From Blastocystis hominis (taxonomy: Eukaryota > Sar > Bigyra > Opalinata > Blastocystidae): 64,000 nucleotides of DNA. The position numbers were made by a program, and so were the translations under genes. Positions 34,641-53,728 of the stretch are shown one piece after another. The notes below the pieces were generated by a model. It saw only the letters and a list, made by a program, of their open reading frames with translations. It was not told the origin of the DNA and ran no database searches. The stretch lies in NCBI RefSeq assembly GCF_000151665.1, contig NW_013171829.1, positions 209,636-273,635 on the forward strand, given 5' to 3'. Each line of letters starts with the position of its first letter. Positions within the stretch are counted from its first letter, which is position 1.

Positions 34641-34668
34641 CGATTCATTTATCGAGGTGTGTGGGAGT

Positions 34669-35673
34669 ATGAATGAGATCAAGGAACTACGGAAACCAGC
34701 AAAGCGAAAAGGCGCAACTCGAGTGATCATCAGTGGATTCAAACGAAACATATACTTCATCGATCTCATCGATTTCTCTTCCAAACAACACAAATGGATA
34801 CAAGAAGTGTTAGGAACACATAAGAGTACCGGATTCTCCAAGAATCGTGGATACAAATATGTCCTTGTATGTATTGATGGATATTCGAAATACCTGATGA
34901 CTCGGAAACTGAAAAGCAAGAGTGCCACAGAAGTCACGCATGCGATAAAGGACATCATTCAAACATATGGTGAATCACCAAAGCATATTTGCTCGGATCG
35001 AGGTACCGAATTCACCAATGCCATCTTTCGTACCAACATCTTGAACAAGTATGATATCACCATGTATCACATGGATTCAGCGAATAAGGCAGTACTAGCC
35101 GAACGAGCAATTCGAGATATCAAGGAAGACATCATAGTTCCATTCAATCAATGGAAAGGTGTATGGATTGATTTGATCGATGGTGCAGTTCGTAGACATA
35201 ATGGAAGGAAGAACAGAGACACCGGATATACACCCAATGACATTTGGCTTAACAACAACAACGATATCTTGTACATGGAGAAAACAGAACCATCCAACAT
35301 GACAGCAAAGGACACAACACCTCAATTCGATGTTGGTGATTATGTTGGAGTGACATGAAGACCTCGCATTCTGGAAAAGCGATCATTGACAAGCAAATGG
35401 TCTCAGGACTTGATTGAAGTTGTTGACATTGATGATCACATCATGCCATTGATATACGAAGTGAAGAATGTGGAAAGCGATAGCACACAGAAGTGTTATG
35501 ATTGGGAACTGCTGGCAAGCAAATGCAAACCACAACCAGCACTACCCATCACTCGATCTAAGAGTGGTAAAGAACCCAATGCATTGAGAGAGGCAGCAAG
35601 ATCACATCGACCCATTACGAGCACCCAGAAGAAGAAGAAGCAACCTGGCTCAAGTGTTCGAAAACGATCGTGA
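34669..35673 (+). pseudogene. int: Second DDE integrase, one nonsense codon
   Basis: About 335 codons closely match the frameshifted integrase at 11800-12796. Here the catalytic region is in one frame: D in VLVCIDGYSKY, D in ICSDRGTEF and E in AERAIRDIK. A single TGA at 35356-35358 stands where the other copy has an Arg codon (RVTRRPR), just before the SH3-like C-terminal part, which then continues in frame to 35673. The copy is therefore broken late, outside the catalytic core. Confidence 0.88.
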
Positions 35674-36202
35674 TGCTCTTCACACCTCCCAGACATACAA
35701 GAAAAGGGATATTCGTGAATGCAGAGATCGTATGACTCTCACTTGTCCATTCTATTCCATTTATCAGTTTGGTATTGGAAAGGGTCACATAATTGTTGAG
35801 TGTATCGATGAATGGTACATCGAGCAATCACACACCATCCATTGAAACACTCACCTTGTATCCCTTATCCACAACTGATTCGATGGAATCACAATGTTTG
35901 AATAGGGCATCATTCTCATTGTAACACGGAATCGATGTGATTATGAGATATGAAGCCGAAGATAATTGGAATTGACATTGATTATTGAATGGTTGAGTGG
36001 ATGTGGGTGTATGTTCAAAGAGTGTGGCATTATTGACTTTCACAAAACACCCAGAAGGTATTGTTTATAAATATTGATGAACGCCATCCACTGTATCACG
36101 AATGAGGACAAGTTTGCGGTCGTTCTCGGGCATATTGATGAGCATGTTATCGAGCTTCTTGAACGTGTAATTGTTTCCATTGCTTCTGAATATGTACGGC
36201 AT
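35615..36202 (-). pseudogene. Remnant of the 11229-type hypothetical gene
   Basis: The minus strand from 36202 reads MPYIFRSNGNNYTFKKL and ends in a serine-rich tail, matching the 11229-11861 product, with frameshifts in between. Its 3' end overlaps the integrase 3' end, as in the intact element. It lacks the internal GC hairpins present in the intact copy. Confidence 0.78.
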
Positions 36203-36258
36203 TGATTGATTCAATTAACTTTGGTTGATTTCGTTCATAGGGTTTGACATACACACCT

Positions 36259-37233
36259 TTCAAACAGGCTCCATTCACATTCGAATATGTGAACATGTTG
36301 AGTAAGAAACGATCTAAATTCATCACTACCGTGGAGAAGAACCTATACAAGCTGTTGGCAAATTCGACCTATGGCAAATTCGTGGAGACTGGATTGAAGC
36401 GGATGAAGGTAAAATTCGCTAGCACGTGGAATGAACGTGAAGCAATCATTCAGAAGCATTGGTACGATATGATCGCCGGGACTACCATGTATTCCGAGAA
36501 TCTGATTGGCATCAAGCTGAACACACCGGTGCGCAGGGTGGAGAAGCCATTCTTCATCGGGTTTGCCATTCTCGATATGTCCAAGCATGTCATCTACGAT
36601 TTCTACTACAATGTGCTCAAGAACACATTCGACACCGTGGAACTGTTGGGACAGGACACGGACTCGCTCATCGTGCAACTGCACGATCGTGGTAACATCG
36701 TACACAAGATATGTGAGATGTACAAATCATTCGACTTCTTGGAGTTGGATAACACGAGCTACTTCTATGGAGAACTCGTGAACTATTACAAGCATGAAGT
36801 GGACAAGAGCAAGTTCCCTTCATTGGAATCGACTCTCAATTTCAACAAGAAGTTGCCTGGCTTGGTCTTTAAGGATGAGCACAGCGGACATCGTATCACG
36901 GAGTTCGTGGGACTGAAACCGAAGATGTACTGTTTGGTCGATGAGAAGCATGTGATACACAACGCAGCAAAGGGAGTTCCTCGCAATGTCGTGATCGATG
37001 GTGAGAGGATGAGTGTGAAGAACATCGATTTGTACAAGCGTGTTCTTGAGGCAGAGAAGAAGGAAGATGCAGTGATCGAAGGCAGCTTCAAGCGTATCAA
37101 CAACCAGGCCTTCGATATCACCACGAAGGAGCAGACCAAGACCTTCATAACATGCACAGACAACAAACGATATATCATGGACGACAACATACATACACTG
37201 GCATTCGGACATTACCGATTGTGGGACATGTAA
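36259..37233 (+). pseudogene. pPolB: pPolB C-terminal third, truncated
   Basis: About 325 codons match the intact polymerase from FKQAPF onward, including Pol B (KLLANSTYGKFVETG) and Pol C (QDTDSLIVQLH). Upstream the frame is fused to an antisense piece of the 10661-type gene, sharing the joint AAACAGGCTCC. No start codon or exonuclease part remains. Divergence from the intact copy is low. Confidence 0.9.
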
Positions 37234-37839: not shown

Positions 37840-38423
37840 TTTGCATGAATATTGTGTTGAAGCAATATATTTTATTATAAAATAAGGGCTTAGGAGCTTA
37901 CATATCCATATATCAACATTCACTTTATCATTGTAAATTGAATGTATGAAAAGATGATTTATTTGAATTGGATGTTCGATTATATATCGAAAGTATGTAC
38001 ATATATGTATATATCAAACAAAAATAATAATGTGGTTTTAGATATGGATGTTGGCCATTTTGATCTGGAAAAATGATAGTTAACGAATAGAATATCATCT
38101 ATGATAATAAGACTGATTGTAATAGATTGAAATAGAAAGAAATAGAAATGAATAGTTGGTGAATGAACGAAAATGGCTTTGTTCTAATTTCTAAGCAAAT
38201 TAAAGTGAATTACGAAACGATATTGTATCTCTAAAGGTAATAATAAAGGGTTAATACAACGATGTTATTGAAATGAAGTTGTTGGTCTATTTTGATTTTG
38301 CTATATATGGAAAATATTACTATTGATTGTATATTTACATCAGTTTAATGGAGAGCTTTGATTTTAAATCATTTTCCTGAAGCTTGGTTGCTAGGCTCCC
38401 TGAATATCTACAAATTCGTTCCT
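37840..38423. repeat. Direct repeat, left copy (~584 bp)
   Basis: It begins TTTGCATGAATATTGTG and ends CAAATTCGTTCCTA. It is nearly identical to 39137-39708, with a few substitutions and two short indels. It is AT-rich, with no coding potential seen. The two copies flank 713 bp containing a hairpin and a rep relic. Confidence 0.92.
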
Positions 38424-38567
38424 ATTTGTATAATCATGTCTAATTTAGATTATAGGTAAATAACTCAATATTATTATTTGACACACAACAATATTCTTCT
38501 GGCAGTTTCATTTTGAATCTATAGCCATATTTTTTCAATTCTTGGTAGTTTATCTTAATATTCAATG

Positions 38568-38616
38568 AATCGGCAGTGTACTAGCATAGAGATCCTGTGC
38601 TAGTACACTGCCGATT
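38568..38616. repeat. Perfect 19-bp-stem hairpin (relic terminus)
   Basis: AATCGGCAGTGTACTAGCA (38568-38586) pairs with 38598-38616, leaving an 11-nt loop. It lies about 75 bp beyond the decayed rep fragment and is probably a terminal hairpin of an older relative of the 39757-45701 element. Confidence 0.85.
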
Positions 38617-38689
38617 TATTTGAAAGTAACTAAGACATTTTGGTTATTATCAAGTTTGATGTAAGTATTCTATACTTTTTGTACCTAGG

Positions 38690-38872
38690 GTTGTTTTGCT
38701 TTATTTTTCTGTAATCGTCTTGGTCATTACCGCATCTTCTCCTGAATGTATATTTACTATGTCGTTTAGTCCATTTCTTGGTTTGCTGCATAGCTGATCT
38801 AGGGAGTAATGAGAAATAACGACTATCCATTTTGCCTATATTGGTAATTGCTATTCTTTGACTTCTATTATT
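38690..38872 (-). pseudogene. Decayed Rep helicase fragment
   Basis: On the minus strand one frame reads AKWIVVISHYSLDQLCSKP, matching ARWVIVISNYSLDQLCSVP of the intact Rep at 39952 (helicase motif C). After a frameshift, FRRRCGNDQDDYR matches FKRRCGNQKDGYR. Just upstream, EVK...QLPI with two stops matches EVKGSQVPLQ. The fragment therefore covers about 60 residues of the helicase end with at least one frameshift and two stops. Confidence 0.82.
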
Positions 38873-39136: not shown

Positions 39137-39708
39137 TTTGCATGAATATTGTGTTGAAGTAATATATTTTATTATAAAATAAGGGCTTAGGAGCTTACAT
39201 ATCCATATATCAACATTCACTTTATCATTGTAAATTGAATGTATGAAAAGATGATTTATTTGAATTGGATGTTCGATTATATATCGAAAGTATGTACATA
39301 TATGTATATATCAAACAAAAATAATAATGTGGTTTTAGATATGGATGTTGGCCATTTTGATCTGGAAAAATGATAGTTAACGAATAGAATATCATCTATG
39401 ATAATAAAACTGATTGTAATAGAAAGAAATAGAAATGAATAGTTGGTGAATGAACGAAAATGGCTTTGTTCTAATTTCTAAGCAAATTAAAGTGAATTAC
39501 GAAACGATATTGTATCTCTAAAGGTAATAATAAAGGGTTAATACAACGATGTTATTGAAATGAAGTTGGTCTATTTTGATTTTGCTATATATGGAAAATA
39601 TTACTATTGATTGTATATTTACATCAGTTTAATGGAGAGCTTTGATTTTAAATCATTTTCCTGAAGCTTGGTTGCTAGGCTCCCTGAATATCTACAAATT
39701 CGTTCCTA
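39137..39708. repeat. Direct repeat, right copy (~572 bp)
   Basis: Near-identical to 37840-38423. It lacks one ~12-bp piece of an AATAGAAAG-type repeat and a 3-bp GTT. The hairpin element starts 49 bp beyond its right end. Confidence 0.92.
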
Positions 39709-39756: not shown

Positions 39757-39863
39757 TTATGATTCATCCATTTGCTAACTCAGTTAAAGTACTAGTACCC
39801 CCCCGGCTAGCCGGGGGGGCGTCTTAGACGCTTTAACTGAGTTAGCAAATGGATGAATCATAA
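39757..39863. repeat. Left terminal branched hairpin
   Basis: A perfect 33-bp stem (39757-39789 with 39831-39863) encloses a 41-nt loop. The loop is made entirely of three further palindromes: TACTAGTA (39790-39797), a 22-nt palindrome of seven C, GGCTAGCC and seven G (39798-39819), and CGTCTTAGACG (39820-39830). It can fold as a branched structure. Confidence 0.93.
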
Positions 39864-39909
39864 GATTTGCATTTTAAAATAACCGCGGTAAACGCGGAAA
39901 TGCAAATCT
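39863..39909. repeat. Second stem-loop next to the left hairpin
   Basis: AGATTTGCATTT (39863-39874) pairs with AAATGCAAATCT (39898-39909). Inside, CCGCG-GTAAA-CGCGG (39883-39897) forms another hairpin. It lies between the terminal hairpin and rep, so it is a candidate replication origin or Rep-binding structure. No classical CRESS nonanucleotide such as TAGTATTAC is present. Confidence 0.75.
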
Positions 39910-39914
39910 GAAAC

Positions 39915-39928
39915 CATAAAATTTTTAT
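39915..39928 (+). promoter_or_regulatory. Candidate promoter box CATAAAATTTTTAT before rep
   Basis: The same 14 bases occur at 42802-42815, just before the other plus-strand transcription unit. It lies 24 bp before the rep ATG. Confidence 0.5.
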
Positions 39929-39951
39929 TTTTGAGAATTCCTAGTGAAAGA

Positions 39952-41559
39952 ATGAGCGATACTACGAATAACAACCAGGAGACGGAGAAGATGAGTCTGG
40001 AGACTCCTACCACAAGTCAGAGTACTCCAAGCTATCCGAGTACACCGGACTCGCCTCGTAGAAGAGACGCTGAAAGGGAGTTGGACTCGGACTTGAACAT
40101 GGACCTACCGGAGTTAACAGAAGATTTATCCATAATTCCTCTGTACCCTGACTCAGAAGAGGATGCACTCCTATTGGAGACACCAAACTCGGACTTGGAC
40201 TCGGACTCGTCACTACCTCTAAGAATCTCGGACTCGGACTCGGACATGGAAGAAGGAATGGACTCGGACTTCGAGCCAGTGTGGTGTCCGAAGGAGATAG
40301 TGGGACCTAACAACCATCTAGTATGTCCGGCATCACCAACGAAGGTGACACATCTTCCTGAATATGTTTCGATACCAGATAAACCGGAGGAGGAGACTGA
40401 TCCCGTGATGCTAGAGGAGGACAAGCAGTGGGAACGAGGAGAGGTACCGGACTTCGAGAAGCCAGAGGAGTATGACACCAAGCACCGTTGGTGGAAGATA
40501 ACAGTGTTCCCGACAAGCAAGGGTACGCTACACTCGCAACGTGCAGTATGCAGATGGGTAAACGAGGTGAAAGTCATGATACAGAAGATACTACACCTTG
40601 CCAATATAATCTGCTGCATAGTGGGTATAGAAAGATGTCCAAACACGGACGAGCTTCATGCCCATATGCTACTGGGCTTCTCTGATTCGGTACGTTACCG
40701 CACTATCAAGAATATCCTGAGAGGTGCTCAAATACGCTACCTGGAAGGTGACCTAGCTATACTTTCATGGTATCGATACGTCGTCAAGGCATTCTCCAAA
40801 ATTGATCACCCGGATAGAGTTATTCAGTGGGGAGCTAACGAAGTTATGAAGAAGAAGGTTAAAATGAATAACTCCGGAAAGAGAAGTCGTAGCGATCTGT
40901 TCTACGACAACAAAGAGGCCATAGAACAAGGAAGGTTCGATGAGATTGATCCACTCTTCCGCTTCGACAACATGAGCAAGATTAACCGATGGTATTTGGA
41001 CCAACACAGACCTGCAGACCCCGTAAGTCATGACCGCCTCGTATTCATCTACGGTAAGCCGGGTGTGGGTAAGACCAGTCTATTTTCGAGAAATATGTTG
41101 GCATCTACAATCTACTGGAAGAACCCTGGAAACCGATGGTGGTGTGGTTACCGATATCAACCAATTGTGATCATCGATGAAATCACGCCAAAACAATTTC
41201 AATCGGGCAATATCAATTGGAATATTATCGGAGACAGGAACGAGGTATATGTAGAGGTGAAAGGAAGCCAGGTACCTCTACAAGCCAGGTGGGTAATTGT
41301 AATATCTAATTACTCATTGGATCAACTATGCAGCGTTCCAAATCGTGGACTTGATGATCTAATGAAGAGAACATTCAAGCGACGATGCGGAAACCAGAAG
41401 GACGGTTACCGAATTTACTACTTTCCTGAAAATCCTCCGGCTGATAACGGCAACCTGTTTGAAGTGAGCAGAAGAGTAAAAGAAATCTGGAAAGTGTGGT
41501 ACTATGAGGTTTATCCCTATTTCGCCAATCTTCCTGAAGTTAATGAAAATGACGAGTAA
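39952..41559 (+). CDS. rep: Rep: HUH endonuclease and superfamily 3 helicase
   Basis: The first ATG of the frame is 39952 (535 residues); the frame is open from 39931. Numbering from 39931, residues ~20-180 are acidic and disordered with Ser-Asp runs. Endonuclease motifs follow: motif I KITVFPT (189-195), motif II HAH (243-245) and motif III YVVK (283-286, catalytic Tyr283). The helicase has Walker A GKPGVGKT (375-382), Walker B VIIDE (413-417), motif C VIVISNY (455-461) and Arg residues in FKRRCG. It should nick the hairpin origin and unwind DNA for rolling-circle or rolling-hairpin replication. The helicase looks CRESS-like rather than parvovirus-like; the ~160-residue acidic N-terminus is unusual. 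All key residues are present. Confidence 0.92.
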   Translation: MSDTTNNNQETEKMSLETPTTSQSTPSYPSTPDSPRRRDAERELDSDLNMDLPELTEDLSIIPLYPDSEEDALLLETPNSDLDSDSSLPLRISDSDSDMEEGMDSDFEPVWCPKEIVGPNNHLVCPASPTKVTHLPEYVSIPDKPEEETDPVMLEEDKQWERGEVPDFEKPEEYDTKHRWWKITVFPTSKGTLHSQRAVCRWVNEVKVMIQKILHLANIICCIVGIERCPNTDELHAHMLLGFSDSVRYRTIKNILRGAQIRYLEGDLAILSWYRYVVKAFSKIDHPDRVIQWGANEVMKKKVKMNNSGKRSRSDLFYDNKEAIEQGRFDEIDPLFRFDNMSKINRWYLDQHRPADPVSHDRLVFIYGKPGVGKTSLFSRNMLASTIYWKNPGNRWWCGYRYQPIVIIDEITPKQFQSGNINWNIIGDRNEVYVEVKGSQVPLQARWVIVISNYSLDQLCSVPNRGLDDLMKRTFKRRCGNQKDGYRIYYFPENPPADNGNLFEVSRRVKEIWKVWYYEVYPYFANLPEVNENDE

Positions 41560-41572
41560 TGAAGCATGTTTG

Positions 41573-42724
41573 TTAACAAAAAATAAAAAATAGAACATTA
41601 TAAATACCGGCAACAGTGCGGAAACCGCCTCCAAGTGTATCTCCAAGTGTATTCACTACAGTACTCACCTTTTTAGAACCGAGGAATGAAGTCACACGCT
41701 TCCATACAGAACCAAAATCATTAACAGACGCAGGATAGATGGAATTCATTCCGGAATTAATCTGAGACGCGAGTATAATGGCACTCATATCAAGATAAGA
41801 TTTATGAGTTTCCAGAACGGAATAACCACTCTGGTAAGTGTAATGGCATTGATAACCAGCATACACGCGGAAGAGCAAAGATTGCGCGGCATTCATGGAA
41901 TCAACGGCCAAGCAGACCCAATTAAGATTGCAAGACCAATTGATAGCCAAGTTACTGGGATTCGCATTAAAGCGATCTAGGAAGGAGTAGACATCATTTT
42001 GAGTTATCTTAACCTGTCCATAACCACTAATATCCTCCAAAGAGACTCCATCATAGGTAACATACTCCGAACGCGTACCGGTATACTTTTGTACCAAATA
42101 GCATCCTACGGGTAGAGCATAGGTAACAGTACTTTGCGAAGCATTCGAAATATTATCAGGGCCAACAGGTAGAGCAGAAGTTTTCCACAGACGCGTAATA
42201 GAACTATCAGTACCTGAGGAATCATTGGCCACATCTTCAGAGGGGATTACAACAGACGCCGCAACGAGAGAGCCTTCATTATTGTACTGATTTCCAGTGT
42301 AATGACCGGTGCAACCTTTGTACATACAGCGCAATTCCGAGATTCCAACTTCACCAGCAGATATAAAAGCCATGATGTTAGCATCCGGAACCAGAACAGC
42401 ACGCATCTTCCTAATAGCAGTCGTACTGGACATAAAATAGAACCAGGAAACAACCATAACAGGATACTCAAAAAACGGTGTCAAATAAACAGAAAAATCG
42501 AGATTGTCAGGTACATCACCAGCATAATCAGGCGACACGAAAAAATCCCTATCAATTGTAAAATTAAAGTTAGCCTGCAGACAGATAGAAGGTGTATTAT
42601 CCTCATCAGGAATACACTCACAACTACCATGTGCAGGATCAATATAAGAAGCCAGCCAGCGAGCACCATCATAGGAACCACACTGCTGAACAATACCACT
42701 ATTTAGCCAATTAGAAAGCGACAT
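41573..42724 (-). CDS. Candidate capsid protein of the hairpin element
   Basis: The 383-residue product is beta-rich and Cys/Trp/Tyr-containing, convergent with rep (13 bp apart). The N-terminal WLASYIDPAHGSCECIPDED recalls a DP...IPD pattern that I associate with capsid proteins of several small RNA viruses; this is a pattern impression, not a search result. The C-terminus is Gly-rich and hydrophobic (GDTLGGGFRTVAGIYNVLFFIF), possibly membrane-interacting. There is no Arg-rich N-terminus, as is usual in CRESS capsids; the neighbouring gene has one instead. It could be a capsid or another virion surface protein. Confidence 0.5.
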   Translation of the reverse strand: MSLSNWLNSGIVQQCGSYDGARWLASYIDPAHGSCECIPDEDNTPSICLQANFNFTIDRDFFVSPDYAGDVPDNLDFSVYLTPFFEYPVMVVSWFYFMSSTTAIRKMRAVLVPDANIMAFISAGEVGISELRCMYKGCTGHYTGNQYNNEGSLVAASVVIPSEDVANDSSGTDSSITRLWKTSALPVGPDNISNASQSTVTYALPVGCYLVQKYTGTRSEYVTYDGVSLEDISGYGQVKITQNDVYSFLDRFNANPSNLAINWSCNLNWVCLAVDSMNAAQSLLFRVYAGYQCHYTYQSGYSVLETHKSYLDMSAIILASQINSGMNSIYPASVNDFGSVWKRVTSFLGSKKVSTVVNTLGDTLGGGFRTVAGIYNVLFFIFC

Positions 42725-42818
42725 AAAAAAAATTATGACATTCAGCGAAACACAATTACAGACACGAGTCCGACAAGTCCGACAAGTCTACATAGGAAAT
42801 TCATAAAATTTTTATACA
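42725..42818. promoter_or_regulatory. Divergent promoter region with GAGTCC/AAGTCC repeats
   Basis: The 94 bp between divergent genes contain CGAGTCCGACAAGTCCGACAAGTC-type direct repeats (42765-42789, unit CGACAAGTC) and the CATAAAATTTTTAT box (42802-42815) shared with the rep promoter. The repeats resemble those near the right hairpin (45520-45590) and may be Rep-binding sites. Confidence 0.5.
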
Positions 42819-43181
42819 ATGTTAACTAGAGGATGGTTCGAAGATTCCGAAGACGAATTTTCCCAAAACGAAGACTATATGGATCTTACTCTAGATACCG
42901 AAAACGAGCGGGATCCACCAAACGACGATATCATAAGACGTATCGGAATAGACTCTTTCTTGGAGCAGGTAAGAAGTATGCCAACAGATCTCGCTTCGCG
43001 AATCGAGTGTCAAAAGTACTTAGACGACGTTATCGACGTCGCAAGATTTTTAAGACGGGTGATCTGGCGAAATACAAAGGTGTACAGGCTTGGGCCTCTG
43101 CGCAAACTGAGCTTAGTAAAGGAAAACCAAACTCCGGAACAGACAAAGACACCTGGTACAACACAGTCCTCACAAACATAA
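42819..43181 (+). CDS. Acidic ORF overprinting the Arg-rich gene
   Basis: This 120-codon ORF (MLTRGWFEDSEDEFSQNEDYMDL) starts 14 nt before the basic ORF and overlaps it in another frame. Its first 50 residues are strongly acidic where the other frame is strongly basic. It has the first ATG after the shared promoter box. It could be a real overlapping gene or a by-product of Arg-rich codon use in the other frame. Confidence 0.4.
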   Translation: MLTRGWFEDSEDEFSQNEDYMDLTLDTENERDPPNDDIIRRIGIDSFLEQVRSMPTDLASRIECQKYLDDVIDVARFLRRVIWRNTKVYRLGPLRKLSLVKENQTPEQTKTPGTTQSSQT

Positions 43182-43594
43182 AAATCATGGAAGGACTCTT
43201 ATGGAAGGAAGCAAAATTCGTATATATATACAGACAACACAAGCGGATTCTACCGAAGTTATATCATATTGCCAGCGCTAGCAGGGACACCTTGAATAAG
43301 GAAATGACGCTGGATGAAACAACAATACCAAACGAGAACTGGAAGGAGCTAAAGATGATCGTGAGACTAACAAGACATTTCAATCCGCAAAACACTCAGT
43401 GGAAGGAAGTTATGAGCAAACAGAAGAACAGCATACAACTGGCGACAATATTCACAGTAGGTAGAATCGGCATCCAAAGAATGGACAACTTCTTAAGATC
43501 AATGTATGCAGCAAACTACATGGAGGTAGCAGGAAACATTCTCAAGAAGGGCCTGTTAACGCGCTTCAAACTAAAACACAAGGGTCGCCGTAGG
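42833..43594 (+). CDS. Arg-rich DNA-binding or capsid-like protein, cut by an assembly gap
   Basis: At least 254 codons. The first ~75 residues are extremely basic (MVRRFRRRIFPKRRLYGSY, VLRRRYRRRKIF), like the DNA-packaging N-termini of CRESS-virus capsids. The rest is mixed and more helical (NWKELKMIVRLTRHFNPQN). The frame runs into the N gap at 43595. The next ORF (43899 on) is open back to the gap in another frame as assembled. If the true gap length differs, the two may be one ~850-900-residue protein. It is a candidate nucleoprotein or capsid subunit. Confidence 0.55.
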
Positions 43595-43845
43595 NNNNNN
43601 NNNNNNNNNNNNNNNNNNNNNNNNNNNNNNNNNNNNNNNNNNNNNNNNNNNNNNNNNNNNNNNNNNNNNNNNNNNNNNNNNNNNNNNNNNNNNNNNNNNN
43701 NNNNNNNNNNNNNNNNNNNNNNNNNNNNNNNNNNNNNNNNNNNNNNNNNNNNNNNNNNNNNNNNNNNNNNNNNNNNNNNNNNNNNNNNNNNNNNNNNNNN
43801 NNNNNNNNNNNNNNNNNNNNNNNNNNNNNNNNNNNNNNNNNNNNN
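43595..43845. other. Assembly gap (251 N)
   Basis: A run of 251 N interrupts the coding region of the hairpin element. The length may be an estimate, so the reading frame across it is unknown. Confidence 0.99.
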
Positions 43846-43898
43846 AACTTTCCAAGTTCACCAGAGGCAACTCCGGGGTCCTGGATGGAACAGACTAC

Positions 43899-45500
43899 AT
43901 GACCGTGGAGGAATTAATACTACAAAACTTCAGAGAAGCAGAACAAAGAAAGAAGACACGCACACAAGGCGATATCTCCAGCACAATACCGGATGCGCCA
44001 ATAGAAAGACCATCTATGGATATTCCAGAACCAGGAGAAGAGGTATATTACTCAAGTAGCGAAACAGAGAATTCTTCATCAACAATGTCAGAAGCAGAAG
44101 ATCAAGAGAGAGAGTTTACGATAGATGAAATATGGAATCAAACACCAGAAACCTCTATTGCACCTCAACATGAATTTCAGAGAATACCAGTACCAAGAGG
44201 AACATCTGCCGTAACGAAGAAGAAATTAATAGATCAACAGGAAGAAATAATGAAACTAAGAAAAGAGCTACAAAATATGCAAGACGATCTAGAAAGCTTA
44301 TGGGATAAACAAATAACAACACAACAAGAATTAGAAATGGCACAATCAGAAAAGGAGGGCATGAAAGACGAATGGAAGGAGCAGCAACAAAATTTAATGC
44401 GTCTAATGAGCCAATACGAGGAAGAGCTACAAAAAACATCAAACAGAGCGATATACTACGAAAATGAACTACATCGCAGAGAATCAGACTTCCAAGAGAA
44501 TAAAAAATTCTGGGAGGAAACCAAACAAAAACAGACACAGCATATAAGACAGCTACAAAAAGAAATGGAGGACATGAACAGAGATTTCATTACTACAATG
44601 CAAACAGCTGATCACAGATTAAAAAACATGGAACTAAACTTACGTGACAAAGAACAACTAATGAGAGAAAGAGAGCAAAGACATCAAAGACAAATGAATG
44701 AAATTTACACCTCCTTTAGCGTAGCACTAGATCAGCAAAGACAAAACGCAGAGAGAAGATTACTCACAGAAAGAAGTCAAGCAGAGGCACATATACTATC
44801 TCAAGAAGAGAGACTACAAAACCAAGAACAACTAATAAATCAACAAGTGAATGAACTAAATCGACAGGACACAATAATACAAGAACAACAAGCGGAAATA
44901 CTACACAATGAAAATACAATCGCTGATATGCATGAACAAATGTACCAAATGAATGAAAGACAAAACGAAATTATAACAACGGCATACGCAGAACCTGGTT
45001 CATCACTAATGACAGCAAACCATCTCGCAATAGCAGGGTACAGAAAAGCAATTGGTGATGGAAGAGAAATAATATGGGACGCTGCAACACTAACTAATGG
45101 AGGAAATCACTATGTTATTCCTAATCTCGAAAAATCTTACTTCGTAAACTGGGTAAAGAGCAACACACTAGACAAACTAGCATTAAAACATGGATTACTA
45201 AAGAAACGCGGAACAGGATATATTAATTACCATTTATGGGGCGATAATTATATCAGTGGAAGAACAGCATACAATACTATATTACAATTTACTGACGCGA
45301 CGAACAAAGTTTTAAACGCAGCTGAAAAAGCAAAACAAGGACTACAAATCAACACAGATGAACAATTAGCAATAGGTGTAGCAAGTAGAATCTACCAAGA
45401 TCCAGAAGCAACAGGTATGCAAGATCAACCACGATTACTAAGAAACCTACTATTAGCCTACGAATCATGGTTAGGAAATAGAAGACAAGTCTTAATGTAA
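43899..45500 (+). CDS. Long coiled-coil protein of the hairpin element
   Basis: 533 codons from the first ATG after the gap, though the frame is open back to the gap (LSKFTRGNSGVLDGTDY), so the real start may be missing. Residues ~110-360 form an almost continuous coiled coil rich in Q, E, K and R (KLRKELQNMQDDLESLWDKQ). The C-terminal ~170 residues are globular (SLMTANHLAIAGYRKAIGDG, KRGTGYINYHLWGDNYIS). I recognise no family. By context it is probably a structural protein. It is unusual for a small ssDNA virus genome to encode a coiled coil this long. Confidence 0.6.
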   Translation: MTVEELILQNFREAEQRKKTRTQGDISSTIPDAPIERPSMDIPEPGEEVYYSSSETENSSSTMSEAEDQEREFTIDEIWNQTPETSIAPQHEFQRIPVPRGTSAVTKKKLIDQQEEIMKLRKELQNMQDDLESLWDKQITTQQELEMAQSEKEGMKDEWKEQQQNLMRLMSQYEEELQKTSNRAIYYENELHRRESDFQENKKFWEETKQKQTQHIRQLQKEMEDMNRDFITTMQTADHRLKNMELNLRDKEQLMREREQRHQRQMNEIYTSFSVALDQQRQNAERRLLTERSQAEAHILSQEERLQNQEQLINQQVNELNRQDTIIQEQQAEILHNENTIADMHEQMYQMNERQNEIITTAYAEPGSSLMTANHLAIAGYRKAIGDGREIIWDAATLTNGGNHYVIPNLEKSYFVNWVKSNTLDKLALKHGLLKKRGTGYINYHLWGDNYISGRTAYNTILQFTDATNKVLNAAEKAKQGLQINTDEQLAIGVASRIYQDPEATGMQDQPRLLRNLLLAYESWLGNRRQVLM

Positions 45501-45514
45501 TTTGTTTGTAAAAA

Positions 45515-45590
45515 ACACAAGTCCAAGTCTAAGAATAAATCCTACAAGTACGAGTCCGAGTCTAAGTCAAGTCTAGTGGTAGACTTGATT
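45515..45590. repeat. AAGTCC/GAGTC repeats and small hairpin near the right end
   Basis: Short repeats of the type CAAGTCCAAGTC and GAGTCCGAGTC precede CAAGTCTA-GTGG-TAGACTTG (45569-45588), an 8-bp hairpin. The arrangement mirrors the second stem-loop beside the left terminus and could be Rep-binding DNA. Confidence 0.55.
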
Positions 45591-45606
45591 CTAAAAGAGT
45601 ATATAT

Positions 45607-45701
45607 TATGATTCATTTATATACTATTATCAAGTCGAGTCACACTACGTGTGACGGTGCGAAGCACCAGACTTGATAATAGTATATAAATGAATCATAA
45701 C
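45607..45701. repeat. Right terminal branched (T-shaped) hairpin
   Basis: A perfect 31-bp stem (45607-45637 with 45671-45701) encloses two side arms: GTCACAC-TAC-GTGTGAC and GGTGC-GAA-GCACC. One stem with two short internal arms is the layout of adeno-associated virus terminal repeats. The outermost 11 bp match the left hairpin; the rest is different. Confidence 0.93.
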
Positions 45702-45728
45702 AAATAAAAATTAACAAACAAACAGTTC

Positions 45729-46062
45729 ATTGACCTGCAGGAGATCTTGAGCGGGTTGTTCACCGCCTGTTACGTCCGTACCTTCCACCCTTTTACTTCT
45801 TCCCAGTAGCCCACCTCTGGGATCTGCTTGCTATCCCTTTATGCCACATACTATATAGAGTGAGCCATTGGTAGAAAGTGCTTTGCAAGAATCTTGCTAC
45901 TTCCTCACAAACGACCAACTCACTCTCCTCACCAAAAGATATTCCATTACCACTACACGGATCCTGGATTGTATCACAATCCTTCCTTCATTCCGTCCTG
46001 TGTTTAGAATCGTATCATCCTTCCTTCCTTCCTTCCTTCCCAAGGCTCTCTGAACCAAAATA
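45729..46062 (-). pseudogene. LINE 3'-terminal ORF remnant, copy 1
   Basis: Sequence matches the 3' ORF of copy 2 (58995-59774), from the GRK-like (TTCC)n tract at 46018-46038 to the conserved AGGTCAAT 3' border, with frame damage. No intact ORF. Confidence 0.7.
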
Positions 46063-46665
46063 TTACCTAGACGAGGTACACACAGAGAACCAATTCCATG
46101 TCCTCTCCTGTACCAGTCGTAGACGCTTTCGGTTCGACGGGTCCAAAACAGTCCTCTTACTGTCAGTCCATCTTGATCTTGTCCTCGTTCCAGTCTTGTC
46201 CAAAGTCTTGTCCGCAGATAAATCCTTGTCCTTGTCTGAGCACTTGGCCGCGATCTTGAAAAACTCGTCGATTCCAGACTGTCTACTCTTCTTCCTACCC
46301 GGTACCTGTGGCAAAGAGGTCACCTTAACCGGCGCCGAAAAGCTAGTTGGTGGGTGTGATAGCGACACAACTAACTGTTCCCTCTTAGGTACGCCCCCAG
46401 GCGTCGAAACTCTCCCGCTCTCTACTTGATCTCCCCTTGCAGGTCCAACACTAAGATCCGACTTTGTCCCTCCGCGTCTCGGACTTGTGTCCTTCTCTAA
46501 CACTCGTGTCAACCTACTAGCTGCCTCTGAGTCGTTCGGACTATCGGGCAGAGGTAGGGCATCCCTCTTCACAGACTTCCTTTTCACTCCCTGTATTTCT
46601 GCTTTGCGGGTCGACACATCATCCAATCCGAGAACCATCCGGATCAGAGAAAGGATCCACGTCAC
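46063..46665 (-). pseudogene. LINE C-terminal extension, out of frame (copy 1)
   Basis: It continues the RT ORF after a 4-nt insertion near 46640 (copy 2 lacks it). It is Lys/Ser/Pro-rich and contains QSGIDEFF (46258-46281), a canonical PCNA-interacting (PIP) box of the form Q-x-x-I-x-x-F-F. The end differs from copy 2. Confidence 0.75.
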
Positions 46666-49501
46666 ACTCCTCGCCCAACATGAGCCTCTCTCTGATCCTC
46701 CGGACCAAAGCCAATCTTTCTTTCATATATCTCCGGCATTTAAAGAGGAAGTGCTCTAGGGTCTCCTTCTCGCACTCTCCACAGCAAGGACACTTGCACC
46801 CTTCTGGCCCCTCTAGCTTAGGGTAGCGCGTCTCCACACAACACCAGCTCCCACAGCGCATTTCCAGGATTACCTGACACCCTCTCGCCAACTCCGGATG
46901 CCTGAACCACAAGTCCAGGTAGCGCCGGTTGATGGCTCGTCCTCTTGTCAAGTACATCCTCAGAAACTGCGCATCGCTCTCCTGCAGCTGGCGTATCCAA
47001 AGGCGTGGAATCATCCTCCGTACCAGATCTCTGGCCGAAAAAGGACTTCCGTTTCGTGGCTCTCCACCCCACATCTCGAATGCCATCTGGACATGGCACT
47101 TCCGCCTCTCATCTAGCCACCGCGCCGGAACCTCCTTACCGCATGCCAGGTGATCATCGATGATCCCTCTACCTACCGTCTGCAGCACTTCCTGTGCTAT
47201 CCTCTCCGTCGTCTTCAGGTAGGTGTTCTTCGTTGACCACCATTCCAGCCTACTCTCTATGAGATCGCCCAACGTGCGACTCAACCACCTCCCCTTCCAC
47301 ATGCATCGCAATCGCTTTGATACCAGAATAGGATACACCGGAGGCATATCCAACTCCAGTTCCAACGATGGAATGCATGCAGAAAACTTCCCCGTGGCTT
47401 GTAGGATGTAATTGAGACCTCTGTTTAGCACCGATTGTACACTCCTTGCCTCATCCTTGTTTCCGCCCCATACTTCTGCTCCATAGAGCCCGGATGTCAG
47501 CACTACACTCTGAAGTACTTTGACTCTTAACTGTGCCGGAATTCTGTAGTTGCATAGGAATCGCTTTTGGCTACCTAGGAGCATCTCCATCCTCCCAATT
47601 CTCGCCTTCATCATCCCTTTACTGTCCAGTTTGGGGGTGATCTTCACTCCTAAGTAGGTATATTCCTTAACTACCGCTATCGGTTCTCCTTGGAGAATCC
47701 ATTCTCTTCCTTCATAGTTTGCGTTCTTCTCGGCAGTACCAAATAGCATCACACCACATTTGGCATGCCCCACAGACATCTCCCATGTATTCGCCCACTC
47801 CGAGACATGATCCAGCAACTTCTGCAATCTGTCTGCCGTCCTCGCAAATACCACAATGTCATCCGCAAACATCAGACCCTCAACCTTGGGTTCCCAAGAG
47901 AATAGTCTCTTCTTCGGTTTAGGGAGGATATCGTTAATGAAGATCGAGAACAATATCGGAGATAGTGGACAGCCTTGACGTAGACCTCTCTCTAAGGGTA
48001 CTTTCGGGGATCGCAATTGACCCACTCGTACGCTTATGTAAGATCGGTCATACAGGGTTCGGATAAAATTGTACGTTTTACCCGATATCCCGTAAGCTCG
48101 TAACTTATACAACAGTGCTTCATGGGGGACCGTATCATACGCCTTCTTAAAATCGATAAAGCATGCAAATGCCTGCAACTCGTCTTCCGGCAGCCTTATC
48201 CGATTTTTCACCGCTCGCGCTTCGATAGTCCATCGTTGTATAATCTCGATCAAAGCTCCGACCTGCCCTACACACTCCTGTTCTGGACGGAAACCCGCCT
48301 GGGCATCCGACAGGAAGTGCTCCTTCTCAAAGACGGAGCTGATACGACAAGCTATCACTGCCGCCACGATCTTCACGCACACAGGCATCAAACTGATACC
48401 TCTGTAATTGTTCATGTCCGTCAAATCTCCCTTTTTCGGTACCGAAACTACCGTAGAAGTCATCAAGTCCTCTGGTATGTTCCCATGGAAGATGGCATTC
48501 AGTACTCTCAGCAATATGTACGCTAATCCCCGATCCCCTCGAGGCCACTTATTTCGCGTTATTGCCTTGTACACTTCTCCTGGAATACCATCTATACCCG
48601 AGGCCTTCCCATTTGCCATCGTCTTCACTACTTCTCGAACCTCCTTCCAGGATATGTCTTTATTCCAGTACTCTTCGCTCCCGCACATACCCTGGTTTTG
48701 AGGCTTGTTCACCTCAAACTTCTCCCAGTATCCGAGATCCTTGCTATGGCCATTTCCCTTTGACCCTAGCTTCCTGTAGTGTTCAGCCCACAAGTCAGCC
48801 ACTTCGTGCTCATCGGTACACAGCCTACCACTTGCATGATCCTTTATCACCATCGCCTTCCTGCTCTTCTCCTCGTTCAGCTGTTTCCCTATCCATTGCC
48901 ACAGTCTGCGGCTATCATTCCGGAGTTGGGATTCTATACCGCTATGAATCGCACGTATCTTCTCTTCTTCCTTGTACTGCTTTATGGCTCTCTGGCACTT
49001 CTTCATCAGGGCTCTCTCTTCCTGCGATAGTTCCTCTCCTCTGTGTCTCTTCTTCAGTAAATTCCGTCTCTTCTCCGCCAATCTCTTTATCTTCCTCGGA
49101 AACGGCTTCTTTACTCTTCTACCAGGTTTGGGCGCTCGGACCATTCCTTTCTGCTCCAGCGAGTCCTTCAATTCCACTAGGAATCGAGACACAGCCTCGC
49201 TACTCTCGCCCTCTATCAACCCCTGGTACCGGCTGATGTCAAACTTGGAGTCATCCAAATCATCCTCCAAGCGTCGGAGTACTGCAAATCGGTTCACACT
49301 TTTGTACACCGGACCTGAAGTCTTCTGCACAAAACTCAGAGTTGCAGATAATCCATTATGATCTGAGATTTTCGAATCCACTACCGAGACTTGGCTACAC
49401 TTTGCTCTTCCTCCAATCGAATGTAAAATATAGTCGATAACGCTTACACTCCTTCCTCTCTTGAAGGTTACTTCTCCTCTCCCCATTGGAGCTACCTCCA
49501 C
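46619..49501 (-). pseudogene. LINE endonuclease C-terminal part and reverse transcriptase (copy 1)
   Basis: 960 codons. The first ~45 residues complete the AP-endonuclease (SVIDYILHSIGG...ISDHNGLSA). RT motifs follow: NYRGISLMPVCVKI, ACFIDFKKAYDTVPHEALL, LRQGCPLSPILFSIFINDI and the catalytic FADDIVVFA (about 540), then GHAKCGVMLFG and the thumb region. A Cys/His cluster (CPCCGECEKETLEHFLFKC, about 910-930) resembles LINE zinc knuckles. The protein makes cDNA by target-primed reverse transcription. The frame is lost on both sides by small indels, so this copy is inactive unless repaired by recombination. Confidence 0.92.
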
Positions 49502-49546
49502 GGGAATCTGCGTGGCCTCGAATCCAGTTCTTCACCTCCGAGGGAG

Positions 49547-52500
49547 TCATGTTGAAGTCTCCCATGTACCACCAAATTCACATATCTTCCTATCTCCCGC
49601 GTAACCCATTATCTTCTTCTTCAGATCTTCTATCACCACTTCCTTCTTCCCCCCAGCATTCGCTGTAGGGATGTACACGTTGCAGATCACAAGCTTCTTC
49701 TCGCCTCGGCCACACCGAATCCAGATCATATTCTCTGTGATCTCGAGCACCTCGGGAAACATGTCTCTCTGAACGATCGTCGCTATTCCCAGGTTTCCTT
49801 TCACCAGCTTCTTCGGCCGGTGTTCGAAAACCACACAGCCCGGAACTTTCCAAACTTCATCACGTTCCGTCCGTTTCGTCTCCTGTAGCGCCAATACGTT
49901 CGCACCCACCTCATTCATGTAGTTCAGGATTTCGATCTTCTTCTTCTTCACTGTCCCTACATTATGGGTTGCCACGCCGTACACCAGTCTCCTGTCAAAT
50001 TGGTATTTCTTCCCCTTTGGTCGCCGGGGATTCTGGAGAAACACTCTCACTCGGAATCCCATATGGTTTCCAAGCACTGAGAAAGGGGTCACAAACTTAT
50101 CGTTCGTGATTCCCTTCCCAGTCACTTTGAAGAAGCGCTCTTGGCCAATTTTGCGGAGAATTGTCACTCGGACGTCCTGCACTATCGATTCCAGTTCGCA
50201 CACTTCCACCAACCGGTATATCAACTTGTACACCAGTTTCACGTTGCCCTCTAGCAATCCATAGATTCTCAGGTGTTCGCCCTTCCTCGGTTCACACACT
50301 ACTTCCTGCGTCGTATCCGAGTCTTTACGGCCTTCCTCGTTTCCTTTCTCTTCTTTCTTCGGTTTTCCTCTTCTACCTCGTCTCGACTTCTTCTTATTTT
50401 TCTTCTCCTCTTCTATCTCCGCTACCGTCTCCTTTGCCTTCTTAATGGCTGCCTCTAGATAGCGGTCGTCTTCCAGCGAGGTATTCTCTACCGATATCTC
50501 CTTCGCATCTTGCTCTTCCTTCACAGATATCTGCTTCTCTGATTCTTTGTCAGGCTCTGCCAAAAGTTCCTCTTTGCTCGGACCTTCGTTTCTTACCTCC
50601 CTCTCCCCTTCCACACATTCCTTCTGGGGAGGAACTACCAAACCATCTGTATCGATGTTTATCCGGTAAGACTCCACAAGTCCGCGGTCTTCCATAGACC
50701 AAACCTCAGGACCTTCCGAACCTTCTCGCCATCTCTCAACCTCCTCCTTCTCCACATCACTCTTAGGTTCGCTTTCCTCTGCCTGCGGTAAGCACTTCCT
50801 CTCGGGCACTCGGACCATCATATCCTCGTCCCAACTTTGGCTTCGCCTGTGCCACTTCACTTCAGGTCTGTGTACTTCGTCTCCTCTGTTGTGCAATACT
50901 TTACTCTCTCCCTCTCTACCGAGGGTCTTCATCGTCATCTCTTCTTGCAAGGGTTTCCTCTTCTCCTCCTCCTCACTCTCTTCTTGATCCACCTGGACAT
51001 TCACTTTCACAGGTGTGACCACTCTGCAGTGTGAATTGGGGATAGTATCTCGTCTCGGTGAATGTTCTCGCGTTGAGGCGTTACTATAGTGAGATCTCTC
51101 ACTCTCGGGGCTCGAGGGTCTCCAGCCACCCAGAGGGCTGCTCTTCCTTTCCTCTACCTCAAGCCATCCATCAACACTATCCGTCACCGAGTTCTCCATC
51201 GTGGAGTCACTCCAATATCCATTCTCGTTTTCATCCATCAAGACTTCCAGGTACTCTTCTTTCGACCAATCCATGGGTGTCGTAGAAGGAGAGGACACTT
51301 CACTGCTACTCTCCTCCTCCTCCCTGTCCCAATTCTGCCTTCCTTCCTCTGAGTACCTCCTTGTCTCTTCCTCTTTAGGATATTCTTCGACCTCCCTTGC
51401 TTCGATACTCTCCTCACTCCATATCCTTCCGGGATTCTCTTGCTCCTTTGTTTCCATGGGGTGTTCCTTGGGTCCCGCTAGACACGTCTTCTCTACCGGG
51501 ATATGCCCCACTTCCGTTTCTTCTTCCTTGGACATAGGTTTGTCACTCTTCGCATCACAGCTTTCTTCTATCGGGTCTGACGGTCTCACTGGCACCTCCA
51601 TTCTCTCAAGCACCTGGGGCGACTCTGTCTTCTGGGGTCCATTGGTTCCTTTGGTTCCATTGGGCACCTTGGTTCCCTTCGGCTCCTGTAGCCGTACTCT
51701 TTGAACCCTCTCTACTGTCGTCCTTCGTGCTTCCTCTCGGTTCTTCTCTTCCTTCACGGTGCTATCGTCTCCCTTTCTCTCTGCCTGTGATTTCTTCTCC
51801 GATGCCTTCGCTTCTAGCTCAACCTCCTTCCTTCTCGCCTCTCCCTTCTTTCCTCTTCCTTCTTCTTTCTTGGCTTCCAGAATTGGTTTCAGCTTCTTGT
51901 ACTCTTCTCTACCCACTCTTATTCTATATGGTACTGTACCTCGCCTCCTTCTCTCTGTCTTGGCTGGTACCATATCTCCTCCAAAAGTGGACATTTCCAA
52001 CGAATTCGAGTACTCCCATCGCATCCTGCAACTCTTTGAACCCTGTCCTCTCTCTTCCCAAAGATAAGAGAAAGCAGAAAAATCAGTGTTTAATTTCCCA
52101 GATGGGAAGGCAAATATACTGTCGGAATGAATTGGGCTCAATTTACTACAAATCGACCCCTCATCCACCAAATCAAGTGGTGTATCCAAATTCGCATTCT
52201 TATCCGACATTTCAGAATGAACCTTCTTATACGGCGGGACATTCTTCTGTTGGACCGTATTCGTCCTCTCTGATAAATCGCACTCTCGCTTCCTCTCCCT
52301 GTCAGTGCGGGACACCTTCAGGTCTTCTTTGTCACCGCTGGATTGCGTATTCATCGTCTTCTTCCCACTCATACTTAAGCTGGCTTCATTCTTATTCGCA
52401 CACGATTCTTCTTTCACAGCCGCTTCAGAACTCAATATTCCTGTCGAATTTGAGTTTCCCAATGTCTTCTTTGCATTCTCTTTCTTATTTCCTCTCCACC

Positions 52501-53728
52501 ACAGAAAGTTGAAAAAATCGAAAAATCGTTTACCATAGGGAGAATCGACATTTTGCTCCGAACTACTTGTGATTACTATACTGCTCTTGCTCTCTTTCTC
52601 CTTCTTCTTCTTCACTTCTTCACAGGGCAGCTCACAATCCTTCTTCTCTTCCAGCAAACTCGACTCTACCTTTGTTGAAGGCGAAACCTCTTTTGGTTCA
52701 ATCGGCTTGACCTCCTCTTCCAAATGCACTCTTTTACTCTCCGTGTGTCGCAATACCACTTCTTCCTTTTCACCTCCGGGTCTCTTCACACGGTTCTCAC
52801 TATTCTTCTCTTGCGTTTTTATCGGAGTTTTGCCGTGGTTGGGAGATTTCGTACCAGTCCTTCTTGATTTTGATTTCTTTTCACTAGAATGCTTCTTCAC
52901 GATCGTCTTCTTCTTCTTCATTTCTTTGTTCATTGGGATTACCTCAGGCTGTTTTCTCTCACTGTCCTCTTTTAACTTCTTACAAGAGCCCTTGCCTTCT
53001 TCTTCTTCTTTCTGTATCTGCACAACTTGTTCTTTTAACTGATTTTCTTCAGTACTTTCAACCGGTTTTTTCACAGACACCTCCACCGAACTCTTCGTTG
53101 ACGTCCTTCGGCTCTTCACTAACCTCTCATTCTTCCTAAGCTGCGGAAAACCAGTCTTCCGGAGACACTTCATCAAGAATCGTATACTTCTTCTCCAAGT
53201 ACAAGCTATATCAAACTCGTCTTGCACGTGCTCTTGGAGGCGTTTCAACGCCATCAAGACGAGTTTTTCGGGTGCTATCATTTCACCCAAAAATAACTCC
53301 CACACCTGATTAGCTAATCCAATCAGTTCATCGTATTTATTGGGTGAACCACTTTTTGTCCAGTCAAAGTGGTGAGGTCCCAGGCATGATTGAAGGCCAT
53401 CAATACTCGATACCCTCCTGGATTCCTGCCTTTGTGGATCCGCTCGTACTCCCCTATCTAGATTCTTGGCACTCTCCGTGTAGCCTTCCTTCGCTTCCCC
53501 TCGTGCGCTCAGACCCAACACTTCTCTTAAACACGCAGAGAGTATATGAAAGAAAAACTGCTCGATCCTCACCCCTGTTCTCTTCATGAGATCTGCATCA
53601 ACCCCCTCCACAGAAGAGAGAGCGGTCTGCTGCAAAAGACCCCATCCTCCACTCTCGATCCCCCTATCCTCAGTGACCTCCAGTAAGATCTCCAAGCGTG
53701 TCGATTTCAGCGAAATCGGTCTCGTCAT
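49547..53728 (-). CDS. LINE N-terminal charged region plus AP-endonuclease N-terminal part (copy 1)
   Basis: 1393 codons from ATG at 53728. Residues 1-220 are helical (WELFLGEMIAPEKLVLMALK). About 220-1130 is low-complexity, Lys/Glu/Ser-rich, likely disordered and RNA-binding. A possible globular domain follows (about 1140-1250, RIYGLLEGNVKLVYKLIYRL). The AP-endonuclease starts at about 1255 (VATHNVGTV, ANVLALQETKR with catalytic Glu, IWIRCG, ICNVYIPTAN). The frame ends in the endonuclease because of small indels; copy 2 continues smoothly into GDFNMTP. No separate ORF1 is evident: N-terminal region and enzyme domains are fused. Confidence 0.85.
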   Translation of the reverse strand: MTRPISLKSTRLEILLEVTEDRGIESGGWGLLQQTALSSVEGVDADLMKRTGVRIEQFFFHILSACLREVLGLSARGEAKEGYTESAKNLDRGVRADPQRQESRRVSSIDGLQSCLGPHHFDWTKSGSPNKYDELIGLANQVWELFLGEMIAPEKLVLMALKRLQEHVQDEFDIACTWRRSIRFLMKCLRKTGFPQLRKNERLVKSRRTSTKSSVEVSVKKPVESTEENQLKEQVVQIQKEEEEGKGSCKKLKEDSERKQPEVIPMNKEMKKKKTIVKKHSSEKKSKSRRTGTKSPNHGKTPIKTQEKNSENRVKRPGGEKEEVVLRHTESKRVHLEEEVKPIEPKEVSPSTKVESSLLEEKKDCELPCEEVKKKKEKESKSSIVITSSSEQNVDSPYGKRFFDFFNFLWWRGNKKENAKKTLGNSNSTGILSSEAAVKEESCANKNEASLSMSGKKTMNTQSSGDKEDLKVSRTDRERKRECDLSERTNTVQQKNVPPYKKVHSEMSDKNANLDTPLDLVDEGSICSKLSPIHSDSIFAFPSGKLNTDFSAFSYLWEERGQGSKSCRMRWEYSNSLEMSTFGGDMVPAKTERRRRGTVPYRIRVGREEYKKLKPILEAKKEEGRGKKGEARRKEVELEAKASEKKSQAERKGDDSTVKEEKNREEARRTTVERVQRVRLQEPKGTKVPNGTKGTNGPQKTESPQVLERMEVPVRPSDPIEESCDAKSDKPMSKEEETEVGHIPVEKTCLAGPKEHPMETKEQENPGRIWSEESIEAREVEEYPKEEETRRYSEEGRQNWDREEEESSSEVSSPSTTPMDWSKEEYLEVLMDENENGYWSDSTMENSVTDSVDGWLEVEERKSSPLGGWRPSSPESERSHYSNASTREHSPRRDTIPNSHCRVVTPVKVNVQVDQEESEEEEKRKPLQEEMTMKTLGREGESKVLHNRGDEVHRPEVKWHRRSQSWDEDMMVRVPERKCLPQAEESEPKSDVEKEEVERWREGSEGPEVWSMEDRGLVESYRINIDTDGLVVPPQKECVEGEREVRNEGPSKEELLAEPDKESEKQISVKEEQDAKEISVENTSLEDDRYLEAAIKKAKETVAEIEEEKKNKKKSRRGRRGKPKKEEKGNEEGRKDSDTTQEVVCEPRKGEHLRIYGLLEGNVKLVYKLIYRLVEVCELESIVQDVRVTILRKIGQERFFKVTGKGITNDKFVTPFSVLGNHMGFRVRVFLQNPRRPKGKKYQFDRRLVYGVATHNVGTVKKKKIEILNYMNEVGANVLALQETKRTERDEVWKVPGCVVFEHRPKKLVKGNLGIATIVQRDMFPEVLEITENMIWIRCGRGEKKLVICNVYIPTANAGGKKEVVIEDLKKKIMGYAGDRKICEFGGTWETST

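Follow-up and report, generated by a model that had tools for sequence, protein, structure and literature searches.

A ~5.9-kb element (39757–45700) bounded by two T-shaped hairpins lies in the final 64 kb of contig C15 (total length 273635 bases; this 64-kb stretch is referred to as the window) of the genome of the stramenopile Blastocystis (18.7 Mb, 40 contigs). It is best explained, at a probability of about 0.72, as the integrated, apparently intact genome of a linear single-stranded DNA (ssDNA) virus of Blastocystis with rolling-hairpin replication. This reading is based on the T-shaped ends, crowns found in opposite orientations in two copies, a motif at the hairpin bases, a replication protein (Rep) of the type encoded by circular Rep-encoding ssDNA (CRESS) viruses and a capsid protein of noda/tetravirus type. 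In such a virus, the folded 3′ end would prime copying, Rep would nick at or near TTATGATTCA, resolving the ends and inverting the crown in each round, and the helicase would do the unwinding; the linear strand would then be packed into the capsid, with the help of an Arg-rich protein. Integration near chromosome ends probably took place via broken or Rep-joined ends.

Terminal hairpins and crown orientation

The original prediction, made from the window's sequence, had described two large hairpins sharing their outer 11 bp, and arm pairing, shuffled sequences and a scan of the window all bear this out. Every arm base is paired (33/33 in the left hairpin, 31/31 in the right), the crown of each consists of two small palindromes, giving the T fold, and 0/200 dinucleotide shuffles fold as well as either (z scores −15.8 and −16.6). 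An inverted-repeat scan of the entire window (minimum 22 nt, within 150 bases) returned six pairs, of which the left and right hairpins take the first two places and a hairpin in the left flank (38555–38629; 35 nt, 83%) the third. The predicted hairpin-bounded interval stands, but its right end is at 45700 rather than 45701. TTATGATTCA occurs four times in the window, precisely at the four arm bases (0.44 occurrences expected; 0/100 shuffles reach four). A small inner stem-loop adjoining the left hairpin is a candidate Rep-binding element. T-shaped terminal hairpins with two inner palindromes, in flip and flop orientations, are the type of end found in adeno-associated virus.

Hairpins of the same plan are found at the right of related copies on contigs C10 (lacking two outer-arm bases) and C4. 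The C4 hairpins have a different arm sequence with the shape and base motif kept (32/32 arm bases paired in a hairpin shared by two Rep genes), and a decayed hairpin of this plan is present in locus L021 (z −3.8). Because shape and base motif persist while the sequence changes, the hairpins appear to be functional rather than chance structures, and the differences in sequence between loci make an assembly artefact, envisaged with the original prediction, unlikely. TTATGATTCAT, with which the left arms start, has 22 matches genome-wide. Seven fall at the three elements, and the remaining 15, without a partner within 1 kb, are probably due to chance. Within L021 (3298–3549) two hairpins of different age are adjacent, a newer type lying beside the remnant of a left end of the window type. 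A telomere repeat at the left junction was considered, as the C4 relic reads GGGTTAGGG at the border of flank and hairpin, and dropped, as alignment with C15 shows a few substitutions from the normal base.

The C10 stretch contains the 33-nt crown of the C15 right hairpin (45637–45669) in exact reverse complement, flanked by matching arms; no forward match was found there. In parvoviruses, crown inversion is the product of hairpin transfer. An ordinary circular CRESS virus, integrated with its circle opened so that origin or intergenic parts came to form the hairpins, would not be expected to show a crown in flip and flop forms. Opening of a single origin would also leave the same hairpin, or half of it, at both ends, while the left and right hairpins share only the outer 11-bp word and otherwise differ. 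ANTATTAC, which we take to be the CRESS nonanucleotide core, is matched 13 times in the window but at no place within 39757–45700 (251 N bases excepted). We consider an integrated circular virus very unlikely.

Gene content and affinity to known virus groups

As predicted, a complete HUH/superfamily 3 (SF3) Rep is encoded between the hairpins (Table 1). Its nuclease motifs are H243-A-H245 (HAH) and Y283-V-V-K286 (YVVK), and its helicase motifs GKPGVGKT (375–382), IIDE (DE at 416–417) and ISNY (N460); H245, Y283, K286, the Walker residues, D416, E417 and N460 are invariant in 20/20 Rep family members, with H243 in at least 90%. All 20 match the PF00910 helicase and none matches Parvo_NS1 (PF01057) at E ≤ 1; a search of the Blastocystis genome with PF01057 also gave no match, its control being equally silent. 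REP_ORF2-G2P was matched weakly by 2/20 (best E 0.042). Comparison of the Rep profile with solved structures gave ten sequences at E ≤ 1, four of them significant (E 2e-12 to 8e-6); these are titled ‘Replication-associated protein’ or ‘ATP-dependent helicase Rep’ and are presumably Reps of circular viruses, and the next, non-significant, matches are 2C proteins, which we take to be picornavirus helicases. With hhalign, both nuclease and helicase aligned with P0044 (unnamed), motifs in register, and the helicase only with P0043 (Cressdnaviricota sp.). The protein is a CRESS-type HUH/SF3 Rep, its nuclease being predicted from the motifs and the hhalign alignment. The first 180 residues are acidic, which to our knowledge is unusual.

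The best matches of the capsid protein in a fold comparison are tetra/nodavirus capsids, in agreement with weak earlier leads (‘Capsid protein alpha’, E 0.11, and Peptidase_A21); by sequence alone, comparison with solved structures gave no significant capsid match. Parvovirus capsids are absent from the best fold matches, an absence from a match list that does not exclude one. The original prediction counted three to four further genes besides Rep, and these are the 383-aa (amino acid) capsid gene (−), an Arg-rich gene (+), a 533-aa coiled-coil gene (+) and an overlapping 120-aa open reading frame (ORF). The Arg-rich protein may serve in DNA packaging or as a minor virion component. Where its ORF meets the coiled-coil ORF, 251 bases read N (43595–43845), and the true start of the coiled-coil gene may lie within them. 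The 120-aa acidic ORF and the C4 ORF do not match significantly, and no polymerase match was found in the four element proteins scanned, the Arg-rich protein up to 43576 only.

Table 1 Features of the element and its immediate flanks (positions in the window).
Feature	Position	Strand	Remarks
Hairpin beside Rep remnant	38555–38629		Left flank
Decayed Rep remnant of older relative	38708–38868	−	Left flank
Left terminal T-shaped hairpin	39757–39863		33-bp perfect arms starting TTATGATTCAT; crown of small palindromes
Small inner stem-loop adjoining left hairpin	39864–39908		z −7.1; also in C10 copy
Rep (HUH nuclease + SF3 helicase)	39931–41559	+	First ATG 39952
Capsid protein, tetravirus/nodavirus-type jelly roll	41573–42724	−	383 aa; fold comparison
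Overlapping acidic ORF	42819–43181	+	120 aa; 41% identical to C10 copy
Arg-rich protein gene, visible part	42833–43594	+	End in or beyond N stretch
Coiled-coil protein	43899–45500	+	533 aa; ORF
Right terminal T-shaped hairpin	45606–45700		31-bp perfect arms; crown 45637–45669
3′ tail of non-long terminal repeat (non-LTR) retrotransposon	45713–46060	−	Abuts right hairpin

The genomes of Bidnaviridae are linear ssDNA with terminal repeats. Their DNA polymerase is described as replacing the HUH domain (PMC6668415), unlike the element, which has HUH motifs and no polymerase match between its hairpins. Parvoviridae, described in the same source as linear with rolling-hairpin replication (PMC6668415), resemble the element, known from integrated copies, in T-shaped ends, opposite crowns, a HUH + SF3 Rep and a size of ~5–6 kb, but differ in that its helicase matches PF00910 and not Parvo_NS1, its capsid is tetra/nodavirus-like and encoded on the opposite strand, and its host is a protist. 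Because a Parvo_NS1-type helicase and a type B DNA polymerase in place of the HUH domain were not found, the element is not to be filed in either family. Rep motif order, helicase and the hhalign alignments (P0044, P0043) are shared with Cressdnaviricota, which are defined as circular (PMC6668415), unlike the element with its terminal hairpins and no nonanucleotide core. Since circularity, the definition of the phylum, is doubtful here, it should for now not be called a proper cressdnavirus; a so far undescribed lineage with CRESS-virus affinities is the most fitting label. The element is parvovirus-like at its ends and CRESS-virus-like in its enzyme, the combination originally proposed for a protist element and supported by the helicase matches above. 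The flip and flop crowns contribute evidence on the mechanism beyond that available to the original prediction.

For the capsid, there is a parallel in the Bacilladnaviridae, for which a relation to noda-type capsids has been described (PMC9426455, PMC11903649): there too a noda-like single jelly-roll capsid is found in an ssDNA virus of stramenopiles (diatoms there, Blastocystis here). Two cressviruses with nodavirus-like capsids, one from seawater, apparently circular and with a papillomavirus-like Rep, and one associated with red snapper, were described by Buck 2024 (PMC11071296), in passages that mention neither hairpin ends nor a protist host. The same passages describe one parvovirus group as possibly circular and another as carrying an extra CRESS Rep (PMC11071296), the mirror image of the Blastocystis element.

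At E ≤ 0.001, a protein database yielded 21 Rep and 20 capsid clusters. Apart from the window's own Rep (P0001) and a Blastocystis record (P0020), the remaining 19 Rep clusters and all 20 capsid clusters come from public assemblies with unnamed samples and the source marks lgn or ena only; these could be free genomes, metagenomes or Blastocystis chromosomes. For P0005, P0007, P0012, P0019, P0024 and P0027 the longest contigs measure 4993–6065 bases. P0022, whose identity to the window capsid is 94%, might even nearly duplicate the capsid gene of C10. Rep-like sequences had previously been published for Blastocystis: seven were listed from subtype 7 by Liu 2011 (PMC3198968), Blastocystis hominis sequences are marked in the CRESS Rep tree of Rosario 2018 (PMC6186406), and both probably refer to the genes described here. 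Neither set of passages on these endogenous sequences mentions hairpins, a capsid or a linear genome (PMC3198968, PMC6186406), and for these three we found no earlier report. A Blastocystis-linked group, CRESSV1, is attributed to Kinsella 2022 (cited via PMC11281440). Among the matches listed, open-access titles and abstract openings held no report of hairpin-ended linear viruses with CRESS Reps, or of such a virus in Blastocystis, a weak absence.

We think it rather probable, if less so than the viral identity itself, that the element represents a lineage of family level or above, in which viruses with a CRESS-type Rep became linear and rolling-hairpin, either separately from parvoviruses or on a side branch of the same transition that has survived, acquired their capsid from tetra/nodavirus-like RNA viruses, infect Blastocystis and integrate near its chromosome ends. 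Parvoviruses with linear genomes have been proposed to derive from circular CRESS viruses (PMC6668415). If the linear reading is true, a CRESS-type Rep working on parvovirus-like ends would either provide a living relative for direct tests of this circular-to-linear transition or indicate that it took place twice. A further noda/tetravirus-type capsid would then be known in an ssDNA virus, beside those of bacilladnaviruses and some unclassified cressviruses, and Blastocystis, a very common human gut protist, would gain a virus with a readable integration record.

Copies in the genome and their history

Searching the genome, as suggested with the original prediction, recovered relatives on C10 and C4, with boundaries of the same kind wherever ends survive. 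The Rep search gave ten matches, short remnants included, in three regions (C15; C10:354454, 57% identical to the C15 Rep; C4:21417–26257), the capsid search three, one per region and none with internal stops, and the PF00910 search four, all above cut-off and within the element Rep genes. Three copies in the genome have both their Rep and their capsid gene open, and these share a common gene order: first Rep, beside the left end, then the capsid gene, on the opposite strand, the Arg-rich gene and a large last gene, that of C4 having no match to the C15 or C10 last gene at E ≤ 0.001. The element and the end of C15 are 18 kb apart, and ~54 kb separate the C10 copy from a contig end made of telomere repeat; on C4, the copies lie in the first 27 kb of the contig. 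All three regions are taken to be subtelomeric.

Judging by left flanks that are 98.5% alike, C15 and C10 have a common history as a locus, while the interiors have strongly diverged (Rep 57% and coil protein 38% aa identity), with the exception of the capsid gene (95% aa identity; DNA 96–100% in 7/8 bins of 150 bases). With the crown reversed for the comparison, the right ends are 94% alike; for the part of the left end interior to the hairpin the figure is 84%, and for the stretch 45471–47225, flank included, 93%. A near-identical capsid cassette (41690–42730 versus L019) has sharp borders, with the remaining genes differing by a third or more; these borders suggest recombination. The mosaic, as far as sequence comparison can tell, points to exchange between related genomes rather than simple duplication.

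Palindromes recombine, and the shared flanks imply one ancestral locus for C15 and C10, so that the inverted crown and the shared hairpin might derive from chromosomal recombination between palindromic arms and not from viral replication. This would leave unexplained T-shaped hairpins of several sequences at the ends of copies and their conserved base motif, and the interiors are too different for simple locus duplication; we regard it as unlikely.

On C4, one open and one broken Rep point away from the single shared hairpin (head-to-head), an arrangement resembling the dimer bridge of parvoviruses. Over 441 codons the two are 92% identical in protein, with synonymous sites saturated (proportions of synonymous and nonsynonymous differences, pS 0.79 and pN 0.05). 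Judging by these codons, they are long-separated lineages with function kept by selection, and either Rep activity or recombination is the likely cause of their junction at the base of the hairpin. Capsid ratios of nonsynonymous to synonymous change (dN/dS) are 0.17 and 0.10 in two pairs. Nearly every change between the two C4 Reps is synonymous, which, together with the capsid ratios, counts in favour of a virus.

A virus-derived transposon now confined to movement inside the genome, with the hairpins serving Rep as terminal inverted repeats, would fit the clustering of copies near contig ends and the Rep relic beside a newer copy, and geminivirus-like and parvovirus-like transposons have been described (PMC3198968). 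However, copies in which both Rep and capsid genes are open number only three, the capsid is constrained, diverse relatives occur in other public assemblies, and no consistent target duplication was seen. We judge this alternative unlikely; the original prediction had left the choice between an undescribed lineage and a derived transposon, and of these the lineage is retained, a virus being likelier than a bare transposon because a capsid gene is present.

Several observations weigh against a linear virus. The free form is deduced from integrated copies alone, with no free linear or circular molecule seen, and three protein-based scans of IMG/VR viral contigs found no relatives. None of the 20 Rep members matches the Pfam nuclease families of CRESS or parvovirus Reps. 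The C10 copy has lost its left hairpin, with a break at a short TGAAT repeat, and the C4 right hairpin lacks the outer 11 bp. Chromosomal recombination between palindrome arms could also invert a crown, and the C4 head-to-head pair was rejected as a simple replicative dimer on account of saturated synonymous change between 92%-identical Reps. No clean target-site duplication was found, and no precise empty site, also to be sought according to the original prediction: the left flank has seven matches in the genome, all within the three element regions and none empty.

Flanking sequences and neighbouring elements

The right hairpin adjoins the tail of a non-LTR retrotransposon in all three regions (C15 and C10 counted as one event). 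A query with this tail listed 47 matches (40 of 73 candidates scored, 30 made into loci), and among the matches listed GGGTTA immediately precedes the 3′ (AAAC)n tail in 14/30 loci, the orientation seen in telomere-extending retrotransposons. The retrotransposon seems to have been added at telomere repeats, and therefore the hairpin may, with low confidence, once have been a chromosome end. Copies of non-LTR retrotransposons occupy 45713–53728 and 58995–63641 of the window, with an ORF (46622–49501) matching RVT_1.

In the left flank, the hairpin beside the Rep remnant is possibly a relic end. A direct repeat of ~580 bp is also present there (37840–38424 and 39137–39708), and is found twice in C10 too. 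The 7-base AAAAATT near both outer ends of the C15 element was not counted as a target-site duplication, given the extra bases between and the AT-rich DNA. Further upstream, the window carries a Polinton/Maverick-like gene set (~22 kb; 5637–27911), with gene names assigned by eye from the ORF list (a 1478-aa type B polymerase, an integrase, and packaging-ATPase-like and capsid-like ORFs), and a truncated second copy of this kind at 34657–37233.

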